The position numbers were made by a program, and so were the translations under genes. Below are positions 17,367-25,236 of a DNA stretch of 64,000 bases, piece by piece. The notes under the pieces were generated by a model. It made no database searches. It was not told the DNA's origin and saw nothing but the letters and a program-made list of their open reading frames with translations. The first letter of the stretch is position 1. Each line of letters opens with the position of its first letter. The DNA is from Rhodospirillum centenum SW (GTDB taxonomy: Bacteria > Pseudomonadota > Alphaproteobacteria > Azospirillales > Azospirillaceae): assembly GCF_000016185.1 (NCBI RefSeq), contig NC_011420.2, forward strand, positions 3,325,001 to 3,389,000, given 5' to 3'.

Positions 17367-20300
17367 CTACTCCGCCGCGGCACCGTGCCCGCCCCGGGGT
17401 TCCTGCCCGGTGGCGGGGCCATGCTCGGCATACTGGCTGTCGAGGTCCTGGAGCCGGCGGCGGATGGCGCCGACCGGCTGCACGCCCTGGGCGGCAAGAT
17501 TGTAGAGCAGCGGCGTCACGAACAGCGACAGCAGGGTGCCGATGGTGACACCGCCGACGATGACCCAGCCGATCGCCATGCGGGATTCCGCCCCCGCCCC
17601 CTCGGCAAGAGCCAGCGGCAGGGCGCCGAACACCGTGGCGATGCTGGTCATCAGGATGGGGCGCAGGCGCAGCTTCGACGCCTCGATCACCGCCTCGCGC
17701 ATCACCAGCCCCTCGTCGCGGAGCTGGTTGGCGAACTCCACGATCAGGATGGCGTTCTTGCAGATCAGCCCGACCAGCAGGATCAGCCCGATCTGGGTGT
17801 AGATGTTGTCGGTCATGCCGGTCACCGCCATGGCCAGAACGCCGCCGAACAGGGCCAGCGGCACGGCCAGGATGATGATCAGCGGCATGCGGAAGTTCTC
17901 GAACTGTGCCGCCAGCACCAGGAACGCCACCAGCAGCGCCATGCCGAAGGCGAAGAAGATGGAGGAGGAGGCTTCGAGCTGCTGGCGTGCCGCGCCCTCG
18001 AAGGCGAGCTGCGCCTCCGGCGGCAGCATCTCGGTCGCTGCGGCGCGCACCATGTCGATCGCCTCGCCCATGGAGAGCCCGGGCTCCAGGGTGCCGCTGA
18101 TCGTGATGGAACGCAGCCGGTCGTAGCGGTTCAGCTCCGTCGCCCCGGCGATGTCGTTGATCTCGATGAGGTTGGCCAGCGGCACGAGCTGGTCGGTCTT
18201 GGACCCGCGGATGTAGATGTTCGACAGGTCGCGCGGGTTCGAGCGCTGGCTGGCCTCCGCGCGCAGCACCACGTCGTACTCCTCGCCGCGGTCCAGGTAG
18301 CGGGTGACCTGCCGCTCCGCCATCATCGTCTCCAGCGTGGAGCCGATGTCGGAGATGCCGACGCCCAGGTCGGAGGCGCGGTCGCGGTCCACCTGCACGC
18401 GGAGCTGCGGCTTCGTCTCGTCATAGTCGGCGACAAGGCTGGAGATGGTGCCGTATTCCTGCAGGCGGGCGATGATGGCGTCACGCCATTCCGCCAGCTC
18501 CTCGTAGGTGTTGCCGCGCAGCACGAACTGGATCTGATTGGAGCCGCCGCCGCGCAGCCCCAGGCCCGAGGGGATCTGGGGATAGACGCGGGCGCCGGGC
18601 ACCCGGGACAGCTTCGGCATCAGCTCGGCGACGATCTCATCCACGCTGCGGCTGCGCTCGTCCCAGGGCGGGGTCCGCACCACCAGCATGGCGCGGTTGA
18701 CGCCCGCACCGCCCCAGCCGGGGGCCAGGATGGTGAGGATGGAATTGACGTCCCCGTTGGCCAGATAGGGCTCCAGGAGTCCCTCCACCGCCTTCACCTC
18801 GCGGTCGGTGAAGTCCAGGGTGGCCCCCTCCGGAGTCTGCACGGAGATGCGGAAGACGCCGCGGTCCTCCTGCGGGGCCAGCTCGCTCTCCAGCGACTGA
18901 TAGGTCACCACCAGCCCGCCCACCGTGGCCGCGAACAGGGTGAGCACCACGACGGGGGCGCCCAGGGCGGCGCGCAGGGCGCGGCCGTACAGGTCGGCCA
19001 TGCCCGTGAAGACCTTCTCCGTCGCCGTGAAGAAGCGGTTGCCCTCGTCATGCACCCGCAGCAGCTTGGAACAGAGCATGGGCGACAGCGTCAGCGCCAC
19101 GGCGCAGGAGAAGCCCACGGCCGCCATCAGCGCCACGGCGAATTCGCGCAGCAGGCGGCCCTGCTCGTTGTCCAGCATGGTCAGCGGGAAGATCACCGCC
19201 AGCAGCACCAGCGTCGTGGCGATCACCGCGAAGCCGATCTGGCGCGCCCCGCGGAAGGATGCCAGCAGCGGCGGCTCGCCCTCCTCGATGCGGCGGGCGG
19301 CGTTCTCCACCACGATGATGGCATCGTCCACCACCAGCCCGACCGCCAGCACGAAGGCCAGCAGCGTCAGCACGTTGATGGAATAGCCCAGCAGCGCCAG
19401 CACGCCGAAGGCGGCGACCAGCGAGACCGGGATGGCGACCACCGGGATGACGGTGGCGCGCACCGTGCGCAGGAAGACCCAGACGACCAGCACCACCAGC
19501 AGGATGGCGACGCCGATGGCGTGGAAGACCTCGTAGATCGACTGGTTGATGAAGACGGCGTCGTCCTGCCGGACCTCCAGCGTCATGCCCGGTGGCAGCG
19601 AGGCGCGGAACTGGTTCAGCACGGCGTGGACCGCCTGCGACACCTCCACCGTGTTGGCGGTGGACTGGCGCTGGATGCCCATGCCCACGGCCTGGATGCC
19701 GTTCAGGCGGAAGTCGCCGCGGTCGTCGCGCGGGCCGACCTCGACGCGGGCCACGTCGCCGATCCGCACCAGATTGGCGCCGTCCTGGCGCACCACGATG
19801 GCGGCGAACTGGCCGGGGGTGGACAGGCGCGTGTCGGTGCGGACGGTGAATTCGCGCTGCGAGGATTCGATGCGGCCGGCCGGAAGCTCGGTGTTCTCGC
19901 GCCGGATGGCGGTCTCCACGTCGCGCACGGTGACGCCGCGGGCGGCCATGGCGTCGCGGTCCAGCCAGACCCGCATGGCGAAGTCGCGCCGGCCGGAGAT
20001 GCGGATGCTGGCGACGCCGGGGACGGTGTTCAGCGTGTCCAGATAGTAGCGCCGGACATAGTCGGTCAGCTCAAGCTGGTTCATGCGGTCGCTGGTCAGC
20101 GTGATCCACATGATCGGCTGGCTGTCGCTGTCCACCTTCGTCACCTCCGGCGGGTCGGCCTCCTCCGGCAGGTTGTCCACGACGCGGGAGACGCGGTCGC
20201 GCACGTCGTTGGCCGCACCGTCGATGTCGCGCGTCAGCTCGAACTCGATGGAGACGCTGGAATTGCCCTCGCGCGAGCGGGAGCGGATCGTGCGGATGCC

Positions 20301-20525
20301 CTCGATCCCGTTGACGACGCTCTCGATGCGCTCGGTGATCTCGTTGTCCACCACCTCGGCGCTGGCGCCGGGGTAGCTGGTATCGATGGAGACGATGGGC
20401 GGGTCGATCCGCGGCAGTTCCCGCACGGGCAGGCTGTCATAGCCCAGCAGGCCGAACACGACCAGGACGGCGCTCAGGACGAAGGCCAGGACGGGGCGCT
20501 GGATCGAGACGTCGGACAGGACCAT
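17367..20525 (-). CDS. RND efflux transporter permease (HAE-1/MexB-like)
   Basis: A 1052-residue inner-membrane proton/drug antiporter of full length. It starts V-L-S-D-V-S-I-Q-R-P-V-L-A-F-V-L with TM1, has periplasmic porter loops after TM1 and TM7, and shows the proton-relay aspartates in G-L-V-V-D-D-A-I-I-V-V-E-N near residue 400. The C-terminal half repeats the layout (F-G-A-L-P-L-A-L-A-E-G-A-G-A-E-S-R). The adaptor gene lies 68 bp upstream on the same strand, so the two form an operon. No outer-membrane factor is encoded nearby, so a TolC-like protein from elsewhere is likely used. Confidence 0.94.
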   Translation of the reverse strand: MVLSDVSIQRPVLAFVLSAVLVVFGLLGYDSLPVRELPRIDPPIVSIDTSYPGASAEVVDNEITERIESVVNGIEGIRTIRSRSREGNSSVSIEFELTRDIDGAANDVRDRVSRVVDNLPEEADPPEVTKVDSDSQPIMWITLTSDRMNQLELTDYVRRYYLDTLNTVPGVASIRISGRRDFAMRVWLDRDAMAARGVTVRDVETAIRRENTELPAGRIESSQREFTVRTDTRLSTPGQFAAIVVRQDGANLVRIGDVARVEVGPRDDRGDFRLNGIQAVGMGIQRQSTANTVEVSQAVHAVLNQFRASLPPGMTLEVRQDDAVFINQSIYEVFHAIGVAILLVVLVVWVFLRTVRATVIPVVAIPVSLVAAFGVLALLGYSINVLTLLAFVLAVGLVVDDAIIVVENAARRIEEGEPPLLASFRGARQIGFAVIATTLVLLAVIFPLTMLDNEQGRLLREFAVALMAAVGFSCAVALTLSPMLCSKLLRVHDEGNRFFTATEKVFTGMADLYGRALRAALGAPVVVLTLFAATVGGLVVTYQSLESELAPQEDRGVFRISVQTPEGATLDFTDREVKAVEGLLEPYLANGDVNSILTILAPGWGGAGVNRAMLVVRTPPWDERSRSVDEIVAELMPKLSRVPGARVYPQIPSGLGLRGGGSNQIQFVLRGNTYEELAEWRDAIIARLQEYGTISSLVADYDETKPQLRVQVDRDRASDLGVGISDIGSTLETMMAERQVTRYLDRGEEYDVVLRAEASQRSNPRDLSNIYIRGSKTDQLVPLANLIEINDIAGATELNRYDRLRSITISGTLEPGLSMGEAIDMVRAAATEMLPPEAQLAFEGAARQQLEASSSIFFAFGMALLVAFLVLAAQFENFRMPLIIILAVPLALFGGVLAMAVTGMTDNIYTQIGLILLVGLICKNAILIVEFANQLRDEGLVMREAVIEASKLRLRPILMTSIATVFGALPLALAEGAGAESRMAIGWVIVGGVTIGTLLSLFVTPLLYNLAAQGVQPVGAIRRRLQDLDSQYAEHGPATGQEPRGGHGAAAE

Positions 20526-20593: not shown

Positions 20594-21685
20594 TCAGCTC
20601 TGCGTGCCGGCGGGGCCGGGCAGGCGCATCGGCTCGATCTCGACCGTCACGGGCGAGCCTTCGCGCACCTTCTGGGTGCCGCGGGTGATGACAAGCTCGC
20701 CGTCGGCCACGCCCTCCGCCGCTTCGACCACGCCGGACTGGCGGGCACCGATGACCACCTGCCGGCGTTCCACCCGGCCGTCCTTCACGATGAAGACGTA
20801 CTGGCGGTCGCCGACGGGAACCAGCGCCTCTTCCGGGATCAGGACCACGCCCTTGCGTTCGTCCAGCAGCAGCCGGACGTTCATGAACAGGCCCGGCTTC
20901 AGCAGGAAGCCGTCATTGGGGATCTCGGCGACCAGGGTCAGGGTCCGGGTGACCGGATCGATGCGGGTATCGACCGCCCCGATGACGCCGGTGAAGGCGC
21001 GGCCGGGGAACACGGCCGTGCGGGCGGCGACGGGCTGGCCCACGGCCAGACGGCGCAGTGCCGCCTCGGGCACGGAGAAGTCCAGCTTCACGGTGTCGAT
21101 GTCGTCCACCGTCGTCACCGCGTCGCCCGGGCGGACCAGGGTCCCCGGGCTGACATGGCGCAGCCCGGCGACGCCGGCGAAGGGGGCGCGGATCGTCAGA
21201 TCCTGGAGCCGGGCGCGGGCGGCGTTGACCTGGGCCTCCGCCCCCTGCAATCCGACCCGCAGATCGTCCACCCGGGCCTGCGCCACGGCCTGCCGGCCCA
21301 GCAGCGCGATGGCCCGCTCCAGCTCCTGCGAGACGGTGCGGCGCTGCGACTCGGCCACGGCCAGCTCCGCCTTCGCCTCGGTCGCGTCCAGCTCCACCAG
21401 AACGTCGCCGGTCTTGACCCGCTGGCCTTCGGTGAAGGAGATCTTCGAGACGATGCCGGCCAGCTTGGAGGTGACGGTGACGGCCTCGTTGGCGCGCAGG
21501 GTGCCGATGGCGTCGAAGGTGACTGGGATGTCGCCCGTCGTCGCGGCAGCGGCGACCACGGCAGTGGGGCGGATCTGGGGCCCGCTCTGCTGGGCGGTGT
21601 CCTGGCGGCCGGCCGCCGCATACCAGATGCCACCTGCGGCAAGGGTAAGGGCGGCGACGGCCGCGATCTGCCAGGCAAGGCGCAT
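20594..21685 (-). CDS. RND efflux periplasmic adaptor subunit (membrane fusion protein)
   Basis: A 363-residue adaptor linking the RND permease to an outer-membrane channel. It has an N-terminal membrane anchor or signal (residues ~4-25), split lipoyl/barrel-sandwich halves (~55-95 and ~165-200) around an alpha-hairpin (E-A-K-A-E-L-A-V-A-E-S-Q-R-R-T-V-S-Q-E-L-E-R-A), then beta-barrel and membrane-proximal domains. ATG at 21685 is chosen because the signal starts there; the longer frame upstream reads through the promoter and operator. First gene of the pump operon. Confidence 0.92.
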   Translation of the reverse strand: MRLAWQIAAVAALTLAAGGIWYAAAGRQDTAQQSGPQIRPTAVVAAAATTGDIPVTFDAIGTLRANEAVTVTSKLAGIVSKISFTEGQRVKTGDVLVELDATEAKAELAVAESQRRTVSQELERAIALLGRQAVAQARVDDLRVGLQGAEAQVNAARARLQDLTIRAPFAGVAGLRHVSPGTLVRPGDAVTTVDDIDTVKLDFSVPEAALRRLAVGQPVAARTAVFPGRAFTGVIGAVDTRIDPVTRTLTLVAEIPNDGFLLKPGLFMNVRLLLDERKGVVLIPEEALVPVGDRQYVFIVKDGRVERRQVVIGARQSGVVEAAEGVADGELVITRGTQKVREGSPVTVEIEPMRLPGPAGTQS

Positions 21686-21891
21686 GGTCAGGTCCGGTTC
21701 CGGGGCTTGTGAAGAATGAGCGCCGCCGACACAGGGGCCGGCGGCCGGTGGCACAGAATTGGCCCGAACCCCGGATTGTTCAAGCGTTTCACTGCCGCGG
21801 GGGGCTGCGTCCGTGAAATACTCGTGCGTCTCCGGGGGCGGACCGCACACTTGCGTACCCTGAGCCGCCCCCCTCATGCCACTCCCGCGTG

Positions 21892-21907
21892 GTTACCGTT
21901 CGGTAAC
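21892..21907. promoter_or_regulatory. Palindromic operator candidate upstream of the RND pump operon
   Basis: GTTACCG-TT-CGGTAAC is a perfect 7+2+7 inverted repeat about 207 bp before the adaptor start, with a further GTTAC half-site nearby (21920-21924). TTACCG/CGGTAA palindromes of this type are typical targets of TetR-family repressors of RND pumps. No regulator gene lies next to it. The surrounding 21686-21969 stretch shows no gene. Confidence 0.5.
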
Positions 21908-21969
21908 GTCCTCCGGTCCGTTACAATGCAGCAAAGAAGGGGCATTCTCTGCCCGTCTGGCGGCGCATC

Positions 21970-22025
21970 TCAGGCGGCGAGGGGCAGGCGGCGAGTGTCA
22001 GGCGGCGAGGGTCAGGCAGGCGGGA
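21970..22025. repeat. 14-bp tandem repeat overlapping the stop of the proteasome-like gene
   Basis: Units TCAGGCGGCGAGGG (21970), GCAGGCGGCGAGTG (21984), TCAGGCGGCGAGGG (21998) and a degenerate fourth (22012). The third and fourth units encode the C-terminus and TGA of the minus-strand gene; the first two lie beyond the stop, and the outermost carries a second TGA in the same place. Confidence 0.85.
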
Positions 22026-22558
22026 CCCACCTGCTCCACCGTGAAGGGGGCGCGCACCCCGCCGGAGAAATGCTCCGCCGTCTCCAGCGCCAGCCGCACC
22101 CGCTGTTCCGCGGGCAGGTCCCGGGTGGTGTAGAGCGAGCCCAGCGCATAGTGCGCCCCGCAGCCGATCGCGTGGAAGCCGCGGCTGAACTCGCTGACCT
22201 GATAATCGTCCTGGACCGAGAACAGCCGCCCCTCCGTCGCCACCAGAAAGAAGCCGCCGGTCTCCACGTCGTTGGAACGGTGGGCGAAGCCGCCTTCCTT
22301 CAGGCAGACCCGCACCGCCTCCACGAACTCGCAGACCATGTAGTGGAACAGATCCTGGTCCGGCCGCCGAAGCGGCGGGCGCAGGCGGAAGCGCAGAAGC
22401 TGGCCCATGCGGAAGGAACTGGTGAAGCCGATCAGGAGATCGCCGTTGCGGAACACCTTGGGATCGGCGCGCAGGCTGATGTCCAGCCCCGCCACCCCGG
22501 CGCTGTCGCCGCCCATCCAGACCGTGCTGCCTTCCACCAGACCGACGATACAGGTCAT
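21998..22558 (-). CDS. Proteasome-fold (Ntn-hydrolase) protein, stand-alone proteasome beta-like peptidase
   Basis: A 186-residue protein of HslV-like size. After removal of Met the chain begins T-C-I-V-G-L. Counting from that threonine, T1, D17 (G-G-D-S-A-G-V) and K33 (A-D-P-K-V-F) fall exactly at the catalytic positions of proteasome beta subunits and HslV. Other fold features are G-F-T-S-S-F-R-M-G-Q-L and G-C-G-A-H-Y-A-L-G. ATG at 22558 follows GGGGAAGG and places the nucleophile at the N-terminus; the longer frame is therefore rejected. No HslU or other ATPase gene is adjacent. The substrate is unknown; assembly into a ring is inference. Confidence 0.82.
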   Translation of the reverse strand: MTCIVGLVEGSTVWMGGDSAGVAGLDISLRADPKVFRNGDLLIGFTSSFRMGQLLRFRLRPPLRRPDQDLFHYMVCEFVEAVRVCLKEGGFAHRSNDVETGGFFLVATEGRLFSVQDDYQVSEFSRGFHAIGCGAHYALGSLYTTRDLPAEQRVRLALETAEHFSGGVRAPFTVEQVGPACLTLAA

Positions 22559-22790
22559 TGCGCGCCTTCCCCGAGGTTCGACCAGGAATGGCCGCGACTC
22601 TGGAGCCGGCCCGATTAAGGCTTGCTTTACGTCCATCCGGCACAAAAGAGGTATGGGGCCGACACCGCCCGCAGGCCCCCCTTCGGGCGCCCCCGGCCCG
22701 TGACCGGCTTTCCGGCTTCCCGCACCGGGCGCCGGTCATCGCGCGGCCCGTCCGAGCCCCCCGGACGGGCCGTTGCGTTTTCCGGCCGGC
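22559..22790. other. Intergenic region upstream of the proteasome-like gene
   Basis: No gene is seen. The region must hold the promoter of the minus-strand gene and ends with a plus-strand terminator-like hairpin at 22744-22781. No convincing paired -35/-10 elements could be picked out by eye. Confidence 0.4.
22744..22781 (+). terminator. Strong rho-independent-type terminator on the plus strand without an annotated plus-strand gene
   Basis: CGGCCCGTCCG (22744-22754) pairs perfectly with CGGACGGGCCG (22762-22772) across a 7-nt loop, followed by TTGCGTTTT. The T-run is only on the plus strand, but both flanking genes are on the minus strand. Confidence 0.6.
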
Positions 22791-22850
22791 CTGCGTTTAC
22801 CGGACCTGCGTTTACCGGGTCCGCGTTTGCCGGACCCGCGTTTACCGGAC
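22791..22850. repeat. 15-bp tandem repeat, 4 copies
   Basis: Four units of the type CTGCGTTTACCGGAC at 22791, 22806, 22821 and 22836 differ at one to three positions. They lie between the terminator-like hairpin and the 3' end of the next gene and are not coding. No inverted symmetry or spacers, so not CRISPR. Confidence 0.9.
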
Positions 22851-22883
22851 CCGCGCCATCTCGGACGTCGTTATCCCAGGCGG

Positions 22884-22931
22884 CATCTCAGGCCGCGCCC
22901 ATCTCAGGCCGCGCCCATCTCAGGCGGCGCT
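22884..22931. repeat. 16-bp tandem repeat including the stop codon of the next gene
   Basis: Units CATCTCAGGCCGCGCC at 22884 and 22900 and CATCTCAGGCGGCGCT at 22916. The third unit contains the minus-strand stop codon (22920-22922); the first two are downstream copies, each with a TGA in the matching place. Confidence 0.9.
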
Positions 22932-23243
22932 CAGGGCATAGCCGCGGTCGCCGATCTCCGCCAGGAAGGCGCGGTCCAGGCGGGCATAGCGCGACGGCAT
23001 CTCGCGCTCGATCCGGTCCAGCAGGTCGCGCGCTGCCGCCTGACCGTTGACCTCCGCATACAGCAGGAACCATGCCGCATAGGTCCGCCCGGCCAGACGC
23101 AGGTCGGCATCCTCCGCCTGGGGCGGCAGGACCCAGAAGCCCAACTGCCCGTCCCGGCGCACACCCACGAAGGGCAGCTTGCCGATGGGAAGCCGGACCG
23201 GACGTCCCGGACCGGGGGTATGGGTCGATGCTGAAGGACTCAC
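22920..23243 (-). CDS. Hypothetical protein, function unknown
   Basis: A protein of about 107 residues if the GTG at 23243 is used; an ATG at 23375 gives 151 residues but would lie upstream of two -10-like boxes (TATACT), so the shorter form is preferred. An N-terminal Pro/Gly-rich stretch leads to L-P-F-V-G-V-R-R-D-G-Q-L-G-F-W-V-L-P, which looks like beta strands. A helical C-terminal part follows (R-T-Y-A-A-W-F-L-L-Y-A-E-V ... L-D-R-I-E-R-E-M-P-S-R-Y-A). Codon usage matches real genes here. No family recognised. Its 3' end is duplicated downstream. Confidence 0.6.
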   Translation of the reverse strand: MSPSASTHTPGPGRPVRLPIGKLPFVGVRRDGQLGFWVLPPQAEDADLRLAGRTYAAWFLLYAEVNGQAAARDLLDRIEREMPSRYARLDRAFLAEIGDRGYALSAA

Positions 23244-23287
23244 GGCTCGGGCATCCCCGGTTTCCGGACGTTCACTTGCGGTTAACA

Positions 23288-23349
23288 AGTATAGAATCAG
23301 GCCAGGTCTTGTGCCGGAGAGTATAGAGTCGGGATTCGCGGCCGCGCAA
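23288..23349 (-). promoter_or_regulatory. Paired 11-bp direct repeats with -10-like cores upstream of the hypothetical gene
   Basis: AGTATAGAATC (23288-23298) and AGTATAGAGTC (23320-23330) are 32 bp apart, about three helical turns. On the minus strand each gives TATACT, a good -10 box; the distal one has TTGCGC 18 bp upstream. They are either tandem promoters or a two-site operator. Confidence 0.45.
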
Positions 23350-23380
23350 CGGCGGCGCATCCGCTGCGTCGCCATGGCCG

Positions 23381-23408
23381 CCTTTCCGGGAGCGCGTCTG
23401 CGGAAAGG
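23381..23408 (-). terminator. Hairpin after the DASS transporter gene
   Basis: CCTTTCCG (23381-23388) pairs with CGGAAAGG (23401-23408) across a 12-nt loop, 22 bp beyond the transporter stop codon. There is no T-tract. Confidence 0.4.
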
Positions 23409-23430
23409 CCTTGGCGGGACATGCGCGGCC

Positions 23431-25236
23431 TCAGCCGGTCAGCGGCCAGACCAGCGCGATCAGCGGCACGCCGACCGCCAGCACGGTCAGCGACAAGGGC
23501 AGCCCCAGCCGCCAGTAGTCGCTGAAGCGGTAGCCGGCGGGCCCCATCACCAGCGTGTTCGACTGGTGCCCGATGGGGGTCAGGAAGTCGCTGCTGGCCC
23601 CGACCGCCACGGCCATCAGGAACGGGTCGGGGTTCAGGCCCAGATGCTGGGCCAGCCCCACCCCGATGGGCGCCATCACCAGCACCGTGGCGGCGTTGTT
23701 CAGCACCGGCGTGACCAGCATCGTCGCCGCCGTGATCAGGGCCAGCGCGGCGACCGGGGGCACGCCGCTGACCGCCAGCGACAGCCAGCCGGCGATCACC
23801 TCGGTGCCGCCGGTGTCGCGCAGCGCGTTGCTGACCGGGATCAGGGCGCCCAGCAGCACGATCACAGGCCATTCGATGCTGCCATAGACCTCGCGCAGGG
23901 CCAGCGCCCGGGTCAGCACCAGCACCAGCACGGCCGCCACGAAGGCGACCGCCACCGGCAGCAGGCCCAGCGCCGCCAGCAGCACGGCCGCCGCCATCAC
24001 CGCCGCCGGCAGCACCCGGTTGCCGGGCTTGCCGATCTGGAGATTGCGCTCGGCCAGCGGCAGGCAGCCCAGAGCCGCCAGCGTGTCCGGCATGTCCGCC
24101 AGCGGACCCTGCAGGACGATGACGTCGCCCGGTTGCAGCTTCACCCGCTTCAGCCGGGTGATGGCGGTGCGGTCGTGCCGGCCGATGGCCAGCAGGTTCA
24201 CACCGTAGCGGTGGCGCAGCCGCAGCTCCGCCGGGGAGCTGCCGACGACGGGAGAGGTCTCCGTCACCACCGCCTCGACCACGCCGTAGCCGTCGCCGGC
24301 GGCGATCGGCGGGGTGTCGTCGCCGTCGTCCTCCAGCGTCAGCCCGGCGGCGTCCGCCACCCGCTTGACGATGGTGGGGTCGCCCTCCAGCAGCAGGATG
24401 TCGCCGGCCAGCAGCGTCCAGTGCCCGTGCGGCACGTAGCGGCGGAAGCCCTCGCGCACCACGGCGGCGACGGTGACATCGCCCTCGCCTTCGTCCTCAA
24501 GCTGCCGCACGGTGCGGCCGACGAAGGGCGAGCCCTCGGGCAGCCGCACCTCCATCGTGTAGTCCTCGATGCGGAACTTGTCCTGCGGGTCGCCCTGGCC
24601 CCGCCGGTGCCGCGGCAGCAGCCGCCAGCCGACGGCGACCACCACCAGCCCCGCCGCGGTGACGCCCAGGCCCACCGGCGCGAAGTCGAACATGTCGAAG
24701 CCTTCGCCCAGCATGTCGCGCCGGACCCCGGAGATCAGGATGTTGGGCGGCGTGCCCACCAGCGTGATCAGCCCGCCCAGCAGCGAGGCGAAGGAGAGCG
24801 GCATCAGCAGTTCCGCCGGGGAGCGCCCGCTGCGCTGCGCCACCCGCAGCGCCACCGGCAGGAAGACGGCCAGCGCGCCGACATTGTTCATGAAGGCCGA
24901 CAGGGTGGCGACCATGCCGGCCAGGATCAGCACCTGCGCGTCCGGCCCGCGCAGCAGCGGACCCAGCGGGCGCAGGGCCGCGTCCACCAGACCTGAATTG
25001 CGGATCGCGGTGCTGAGCACCAGCACCGCTGCAACGGTGACGACGGCGGTGTCGGAGAAGCCGGAGAAGGCCTTCTCCCCCGGCACGACGCCCAGCACGA
25101 CCGCGGCCACCAGGGCCAGCATCGCCACCAGATCGTAGCGCAGCCGGTCCCAGATGAAGAGCGCCAGTGCCCCGGCCAGGATGCCGAAGACGATGAGCTG
25201 GTCGCCCGTGGGCATGCCGGGGGTCTCCGGCGTCAC
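23431..25236 (-). CDS. DASS/SLC13-type anion transporter with RCK_C domains
   Basis: A 601-residue inner-membrane protein with membrane helices in the first ~190 and last ~210 residues. These carry the D-A-S-S-type loops S-A-F-M-N-N-V-G-A and V-T-P-V-L-N-N-A-A-T-V. Between them lie two soluble RCK_C/TrkA-C-like domains (about 205-290 and 300-375), each containing a G-D-I-L-L-L-E-G or G-D-V-I-V-L-Q-G strand. Members carry sulfate, dicarboxylates or other anions with Na+. GTG at 25236 overlaps the CBS gene stop (GTGA); ATG at 25215 is an alternative start. Overlap with the CBS gene suggests joint regulation. Confidence 0.88.
   Translation of the reverse strand: MTPETPGMPTGDQLIVFGILAGALALFIWDRLRYDLVAMLALVAAVVLGVVPGEKAFSGFSDTAVVTVAAVLVLSTAIRNSGLVDAALRPLGPLLRGPDAQVLILAGMVATLSAFMNNVGALAVFLPVALRVAQRSGRSPAELLMPLSFASLLGGLITLVGTPPNILISGVRRDMLGEGFDMFDFAPVGLGVTAAGLVVVAVGWRLLPRHRRGQGDPQDKFRIEDYTMEVRLPEGSPFVGRTVRQLEDEGEGDVTVAAVVREGFRRYVPHGHWTLLAGDILLLEGDPTIVKRVADAAGLTLEDDGDDTPPIAAGDGYGVVEAVVTETSPVVGSSPAELRLRHRYGVNLLAIGRHDRTAITRLKRVKLQPGDVIVLQGPLADMPDTLAALGCLPLAERNLQIGKPGNRVLPAAVMAAAVLLAALGLLPVAVAFVAAVLVLVLTRALALREVYGSIEWPVIVLLGALIPVSNALRDTGGTEVIAGWLSLAVSGVPPVAALALITAATMLVTPVLNNAATVLVMAPIGVGLAQHLGLNPDPFLMAVAVGASSDFLTPIGHQSNTLVMGPAGYRFSDYWRLGLPLSLTVLAVGVPLIALVWPLTG

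Follow-up and report, generated by a model that had tools for sequence, protein, structure and literature searches.

The gene analysed here, a stand-alone open reading frame of Rhodospirillum centenum SW, encodes a small protein with a predicted proteasome fold, which raises the question of which bacterial proteasome homolog it represents and what such a protein would do in the cell. The window, i.e. the whole stretch of DNA that was analysed, comprises 64,000 nucleotides. Structural, phylogenetic and genomic comparisons indicate that the window protein is best filed as a member of AAH, an already published family, and that it is probably an N-terminal-threonine peptidase with neither a propeptide nor a dedicated unfoldase, its ring and its activity being predicted ones.

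Gene structure and start codon

The gene is present in a single copy in the complete 4,355,543-bp genome and encodes a protein beginning with MTCIVGL, with a purine-rich GGGGAAGG located directly 5' of its ATG (Table 1). A longer, TTG-started frame of 215 aa is likewise open; the Met-Thr start was chosen because it is shared by all 179 relatives with a match extending to residue 1, with ATG, TTG and GTG as start codons in 151, 14 and 14 of them, respectively. Removal of Met ahead of Thr is expected, and without this Met the residues T1, D17 and K33 stand in the proteasome register. The repeat that spans the stop codon encodes the final tail residues of the protein, which correspond to the low-confidence end of the structural model. 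Further GC-rich short tandem repeats are found upstream of the gene, at 22793-22855 (15 bp, 4.2 copies) and 22884-22930 (16 bp, 2.9 copies), and no Rfam match was obtained over positions 21000-24000 of the window.

Table 1. Features of the window gene and its immediate surroundings (positions in the window).
Feature	Position	Strand	Remarks
AAH-type proteasome-like Ntn hydrolase gene	21998..22558	minus	186 aa; ATG at 22558, stop at 21998; Met-Thr start; T1/D17/K33
Codons 1-3 (start, Thr1, Cys2)	22550..22558	minus	propeptide absent
14-bp tandem repeat, 3.7 copies	21970..22022	.	spans stop codon of the window gene
151-aa ORF upstream of the window gene	22920..23375	minus	family not assigned; same strand as the window gene
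HlyD-type membrane fusion protein, downstream of the window gene	20594..21877	minus	synteny found in close genera but not in Azospirillum
Long ORF after the HlyD gene	17367-20525		RND pump as judged by eye

Predicted fold and profile matches

The AlphaFold model, computed as a single chain from an alignment of 70 sequences, has a pLDDT of 94.9 and a pTM of 0.90 and displays the proteasome fold, as the first-pass annotation had proposed from the sequence. Its top Foldseek match among solved structures is the BPH 5ovs (E 5.9e-13, TM 0.80), followed by HslV, and the VIA comparison yielded Z scores of 21.5 and 19.7 against BPH and HslV, respectively, with model residue 2 (Thr) superposed on residue 1 of the solved chain. 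The model contains four helices, H1 (49-58), H2 (70-88), H3 (135-144) and H4 (150-164), and a last strand at 173-177, after which nothing is structured, so that S12/H5 is missing; there are no long insertions. With all four helices in place and no structured element beyond the final strand, the window protein is not a PPH, a type of about 140 residues devoid of H2, and it lacks the H5 of the Anbu type. From the cyanobacterial homologs (CPH) it was set apart by taxonomic distribution only.

Searches at the sequence level pointed in the same direction. The window protein matched BPH by phmmer (E 3.8e-5), and the profile search placed BPH first, with HslV close behind. PHROG family phrog_1040, named 'peptidase HslV family', matched the window protein (E 1.1e-21) and all 70 members tested; this profile is phage-centred, and its name does not specify which proteasome homolog is meant. 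Pfam offered no usable model for the window protein (best E 0.13, to an unrelated family), PF00227 was weakly reached by four of the 70 relatives, and NCBIfam returned only weak proteasome/HslV matches for the window protein.

Relation to HslV, Anbu and BPH, and assignment to AAH

In the tree of 53 rows, HslV (seven rows), Anbu and BPH formed clades with support of 100/99, 99/96 and 95/89, respectively, and the window protein fell outside all of them, in agreement with the earlier view that it is neither HslV nor Anbu; the BPH clade consists of two rows only, which hit BPHs of solved structure (E 2.5e-59 and 3.6e-70), one of them on a long branch. Five Azospirillaceae-type rows grouped together at 100/99. 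The AAH rows as a whole appeared as a strict single clade in 33% of bootstrap trees (2 changes), and the tree does not settle them as one clade, owing to the long branches of the references and to a midpoint root placed within the AAH rows; they may nevertheless share one origin.

HslV (ClpQ) resembles the window protein in fold, triad and compact subunit, but it belongs to a clade of its own, is encoded in this genome by a separate gene paired with hslU and starts with TT[IV] rather than TCIV. Anbu belongs to the same superfamily and is encoded in the same genome at C1:1743142, where it lies below the Pfam Proteasome cut-off and matches solved Anbus at 2e-33; its rows differ in starting with TYC and in being longer, and an extended C-terminal helix H5 marks the Anbu type. 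BPH (5ovs, 5ovt and 5ovu; PMC5777263) is the best fold match and of a like length class, although identity is about 25% and it occupies a separate clade. In addition, the oxyanion region holds Gly in the two BPH rows and Ser/Thr in AAH, and the Ser129 slot holds Ser in the former and Cys in the latter.

The lack of an hslU beside the gene, taken at first as a sign against HslV, holds within the window; just past its end, however, a separate hslV and hslU pair is encoded at C1:3390823-3392658, equivalent to window positions 65823-67658 (1.8-3.7 kb past the window end), which settles the earlier question of whether hslVU exists elsewhere in this genome. This hslU is situated about 43 kb from the window gene. 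It would be available to a divergent HslV or BPH working with the HslU of the genome or with some other unfoldase, and the nearest solved folds are indeed those of BPH and HslV; such a reading is nonetheless improbable, given that the window protein is placed outside the HslV and BPH clades, that this hslU already adjoins a different, complete hslV, and that no AAA+ unfoldase was seen by eye among the 45 neighbour clusters listed (six representatives profiled). No partner unfoldase is known for BPH either.

The features of the window protein correspond to those of AAH, one of 22 new proteasome-like families described from sequence by Fuchs, Alva and Lupas (2021; PMC8665760). In the accessible text of that paper, AAH is placed in group I together with BPH and HslV, possesses the triad, lacks a propeptide and S12/H5, is represented by WP_035979212, and is reported from alphaproteobacteria, actinobacteria and phages, as well as, in phage-borne copies, from Firmicutes and Bacteroidota. 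The likeness thus extends to the triad, the compact group-I set of H1-H4, the missing propeptide and S12/H5, the kinship with BPH and the host range, and the assignment was made by this published description rather than against the authors' sequences. One point fits uneasily: oxyanion Gly47 is listed in the accessible text as common to the core of all families (PMC8665760), while the corresponding slot in the present alignment is mostly Ser, Thr or Asp. The suggestion of a new class of bacterial protease is superseded, since the features tested fit a family published in 2021.

As far as the accessible text goes, no genomic context suggestive of function is reported there for the new families, and its main text does not contain the words 'Nitrogen', 'rhizob' or 'terminase' (PMC8665760). 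A later paper citing it (PMC13022661) mentions none of AAH, BPH and Anbu in its text, and the accessible part of a phage paper (PMC8953757) names one protein as BPH without context. No assay of an AAH protein was found in the literature searched.

Active-site residues

The residues T1, D17 and K33, whose exact spacing had been noticed at first sight, were each found in all 146 distinct relatives, a set gathered mostly by peptide patterns covering the N-terminus and the SFRMGQLL stretch; the invariance of these two regions is inflated because both served as search patterns. The triad was also retained in all 16 intact rhizobial copies checked. A homolog from Tenacibaculum phage pT24 (L206, 3001-3597) begins with Met-Ser, so that T1 is replaced by Ser and the nucleophile would be Ser1. 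A Ser1 nucleophile has been reported for some BPHs.

Residue 2 is Cys in 133 of the 146 relatives, and the slot aligned to Ser129 of the 20S proteasome (the Cys132 slot) is likewise Cys in 133, with Ser in the other 13. The pairs formed by residues 2 and 132 are C/C in 121, C/S in 12, A/C in 10, V/C in two and A/S in one. A redox or disulfide role of Cys2 and Cys132 was considered and rejected because the two positions vary independently, and no disulfide is supported. The slot that corresponds, by sequence alignment only, to the oxyanion glycine in HslV and in the 20S beta subunit is occupied by S in 101, T in 26, D in 10, G in four, N in three and A in two of the 146 relatives. Given these residues, and the prevalence of Cys at the Ser129 slot, both substrate and chemistry may differ from those of proteasomes. 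An E-x-x-S motif resembling the D166/S169 pair of the 20S proteasome is common (E in 124 and S in 112 of the 146), and of the eight proteins from named phages that a plain tblastn search detected, seven keep the Arg following S-F/Y.

Beyond the triad, D31, S47, R49, the Cys132 slot and a GVR-x-PF motif are near-invariant in the 146 relatives. Together with the altered oxyanion and Ser129 positions, this would suit a proteasome-fold Ntn hydrolase that is no general protease, but rather a connectase-like monomeric or small-oligomeric amidase or ligase dedicated to one substrate. Connectase, a member of the same superfamily, is described as a ligase and not a protease, and as lacking H1 and H2, both of which join in the contacts between proteasome subunits (accessible text of PMC8665760). 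This alternative is rather unlikely, though it deserves more weight than the other two considered here: H1 and H2 are present in the AAH model, and the conservation is partly a matter of ascertainment, SFRMGQLL having been a search pattern.

Occurrence and surroundings in Azospirillaceae

The gene was detected in 53 of 82 genomes of the same family, i.e. its own genome and 52 others (69-86% identity), and no internal stop was found in these copies. Together with the triad kept in the 146 relatives, this conservation far exceeds what chance would give. On a wider scale it is rare. In an even draw of the phylum, three of 398 genomes matched, one being the own genome and the other two (G300 and G431) being BPHs by their matches to solved members of that type (E 3.6e-70 and 2.5e-59, respectively); a profile search of an even draw of the class gave three of 385, own genome included, and an even draw of the phylum of Frankia gave one of 296, the seed genome itself. 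Relatives were found in alphaproteobacteria, actinobacteria, phages, Firmicutes and Bacteroidota.

Of the genes flanking the window gene, those identified are transport or CBS-domain genes, none of them a phage gene. The downstream HlyD and RND-type genes are common to all three near relatives with long flanks (L029, L030 and L044), and the upstream 151-aa ORF, which has no PHROG or Pfam match and adjoins the AAH gene in some close relatives only, recurs in two of these three (L029 and L044). In the Azospirillum, Skermanella and Arenibaculum loci none of the neighbours was matched, save for one transporter match of 32% (L045), and a comparison of these loci and the three long-flank relatives revealed no operon partner. 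Taken together, these surroundings look like ordinary inheritance with shifting neighbours. That the gene might instead be a phage-derived remnant devoid of cellular function is very improbable: many relatives outside Azospirillaceae are carried by phages and prophages, and plasmid copies of the R. tropici type are broken by an in-frame stop, but the 53 same-family copies contain no internal stop, the Azospirillaceae-type rows hold together in the tree, and the window gene has transport and CBS-domain neighbours.

A true nifH was counted in 46 of the 53 same-family genomes with the gene and in 19 of the 29 without it, in a tally made by hand in which fragments were counted as present and BchL/ChlL-like matches near 200-228 bits were left out. 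One nifH-positive genus of seven genomes is entirely devoid of the gene. Co-occurrence with nif was therefore rejected for the family of R. centenum, and no nif link is claimed for the window gene, because the two groups differ only weakly and genus acts as a confounder. Searches with rhizobial nif proteins found no nif genes in the flanks of the Azospirillaceae and Frankia loci; one nifV-like match of 30% (L048) was set aside as generic. A pattern scan found no sigma54 site upstream of the window gene on its strand, and over the whole window the sigma54 pattern occurred 41 times against 66.5 expected, i.e. less often than by chance. The window gene shows neither a nif/sigma54 link nor a phage-packaging link; by itself it is an ordinary, well-conserved AAH member of modest interest.

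A rhizobial branch linked to nif genes and sigma54-type sites

For the neighbour survey, the best 80 loci were taken from each of two sets, 197 genome loci and 375 viral loci. Among the genome loci surveyed, nif genes were found in the flanks of 17, all of them in Rhizobiaceae, and they were also seen at three of the eight plasmid loci examined (of 26 plasmid records). The position of AAH in the nif region varies, adjoining nifQ-iscA-nifS, nifENX or nifHD. In a separate tree, the 15 intact nif-linked copies and that of Mesorhizobium amorphae constitute one group (100/99), and the rhizobial loci are not independent events because they form one clade and include some near-copies.

The -24/-12 consensus of sigma54 promoters is TGGCACN5TTGC. 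A site of this type lies on the AAH strand at -111 to -124 from the ATG in all 20 loci of the branch, which comprise the 15 intact nif-linked copies, four broken ones and M. amorphae (L014, L027, L028, L066, L067, L069-L073, L077-L081, L084, L086, L092, L095 and L104). With GG and GC fixed, three of the 20 sites match the consensus without mismatch, 13 with one and four with two, and a NifA-type TGT-N10-ACA site is located farther upstream in 15 of the 20. Among the comparison loci, one of 11 has a sigma54-type site, with two mismatches, and the background in the same loci amounts to 0.014 for sigma54-type sites in a 41-bp slot and to 0.12 for NifA-type sites in 450 bp. A site between -160 and -60 was present at 24 of the 178 loci with enough upstream DNA, and 22 of these 24 belong to the rhizobial branch, namely the 20 listed above, R. 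tropici L013 and the copy in a second M. amorphae record.

The spacer letters vary by species while the sigma54-type site stays, and M. amorphae has kept the site with no nif gene within its flanks. The sites are thus not just hitch-hiking, because the spacers differ between species and M. amorphae keeps its site in the absence of flanking nif genes. In L013 and L069-L072, on plasmids of the Rhizobium tropici/lusitanum/leucaenae/freirei type, AAH is interrupted in frame by a stop at codon 39, with the upstream site retained; these copies are probably dead pseudogenes. The site is absent from the AAH genes of R. etli (L026) and Paraburkholderia (L015), both on large plasmids of nodule bacteria. 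The exact sigma54 consensus was detected in four of 28 loci scanned, of which the one in a nif locus (L027) precedes iscA and not AAH.

COG3484, which we take to be Anbu, provides a precedent for a sigma54-controlled proteasome homolog, though not for AAH. It is listed as 'proteasome-type protease' in the accessible part of a sigma54-regulon study (PMC12316311). In the accessible text of PMC7415380, proteasome-dependent proteolysis is merely one entry among the nodule processes that respond to nitric oxide. Literature tying AAH either to nif or to terminase was not found in a search that reached few subscription journals.

Phage copies beside packaging and head genes

Across 170 loci, the most widely recurring partners of AAH were portal, seen in 25 lineages, head maturation protease, in 21, and terminase, in 18, followed by a capsid-like cluster named by eye (10), and then by HNH and others. 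Among the 80 viral contigs surveyed out of 375 (the best ones, L109-L188, with flanks of at most 5 kb on each side), raw counts place a terminase large subunit or portal gene no more than 8 kb from AAH in 44, and no more than 1 kb away in 34, which represent 27 of 57 lineages. Each of the 160 genes labelled as portal, terminase, protease, capsid, HNH, methyltransferase or small-terminase-like lies on the AAH strand. The slot itself is not fixed, since AAH may precede terminase, separate it from portal, stand between the latter and the protease gene, or follow the capsid gene. AAH is not a simple substitute for the head maturation protease because the latter was recognised in 27 of the 80 viral loci and in 23 of the 44 loci with terminase or portal.

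Packaging as a universal phage context was rejected, given that terminase, portal, head protease and capsid genes were all unrecognised at 30 of the 80 viral loci and that no annotated terminase or portal occurred in the flanks (0.7-10 kb per side) of any of the eight named-phage regions. Four of these eight regions have nucleotide-metabolism neighbours (ribonucleotide reductase, thymidylate synthase, dihydrofolate reductase or thymidine kinase); they are L202-L205, from T5-like Salmonella, Pseudoalteromonas, Vibrio and Geobacillus phages. The homolog of Pseudoalteromonas phage J2-1 (L203, 5001-6167) consists of 388 aa, about twice the usual length, and has an extra C-terminal part.

Proposed mode of action and significance

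For the window protein, read as an N-terminal-threonine peptidase, the following mode of action may be proposed. Methionine aminopeptidase would expose Thr1, and the subunits would build a closed homo-oligomeric double ring like that of BPH or HslV, in which Thr1, activated by Lys33 and Asp17, would cut unfolded peptides. Substrates would enter without a dedicated AAA+ unfoldase, in an ATP-independent manner; ATP-independent action on unfolded proteins or peptides follows the proposal made for BPH in the accessible texts of PMC5777263 and PMC8665760. In the Azospirillaceae lineage, the protein may serve as a chromosomal accessory of protein quality control alongside HslUV and Anbu, while in rhizobia it would have been recruited to nitrogen-fixing conditions via sigma54/NifA control, and in many phages it appears to travel with packaging and head genes. 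Recruitment to both nif and phage-packaging settings fits an enzyme for high folding load, a specific substrate also being possible.

What is new here concerns the family and not the window gene, namely the promoter sites in the nif-linked rhizobial branch and the proximity of phage copies to terminase and portal, and these links are of higher interest than the window gene. On balance, we favour, somewhat less firmly than the peptidase assignment, the view that rhizobial AAH belongs to the NifA/sigma54 regulon through a promoter of its own rather than by read-through from nif, acting as a low-oxygen peptidase of the nodule, and that in many phages AAH takes part in packaging and head assembly. 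AAH is among the more numerous uncharacterised proteasome-like families, for which the nif and DNA-packaging neighbours of the relatives hint at when the protein is used, and the sigma54/NifA-type sites and the position in phage packaging regions offer testable settings. The production of a proteasome-like protease by nitrogen-fixing rhizobia, if it occurs, would bear on the fate of damaged nitrogenase and of plant peptides in nodules. If true, these links would give AAH its first functional setting, and the gene of R. centenum would represent the free-living branch of a protein twice drafted into high-demand proteostasis.
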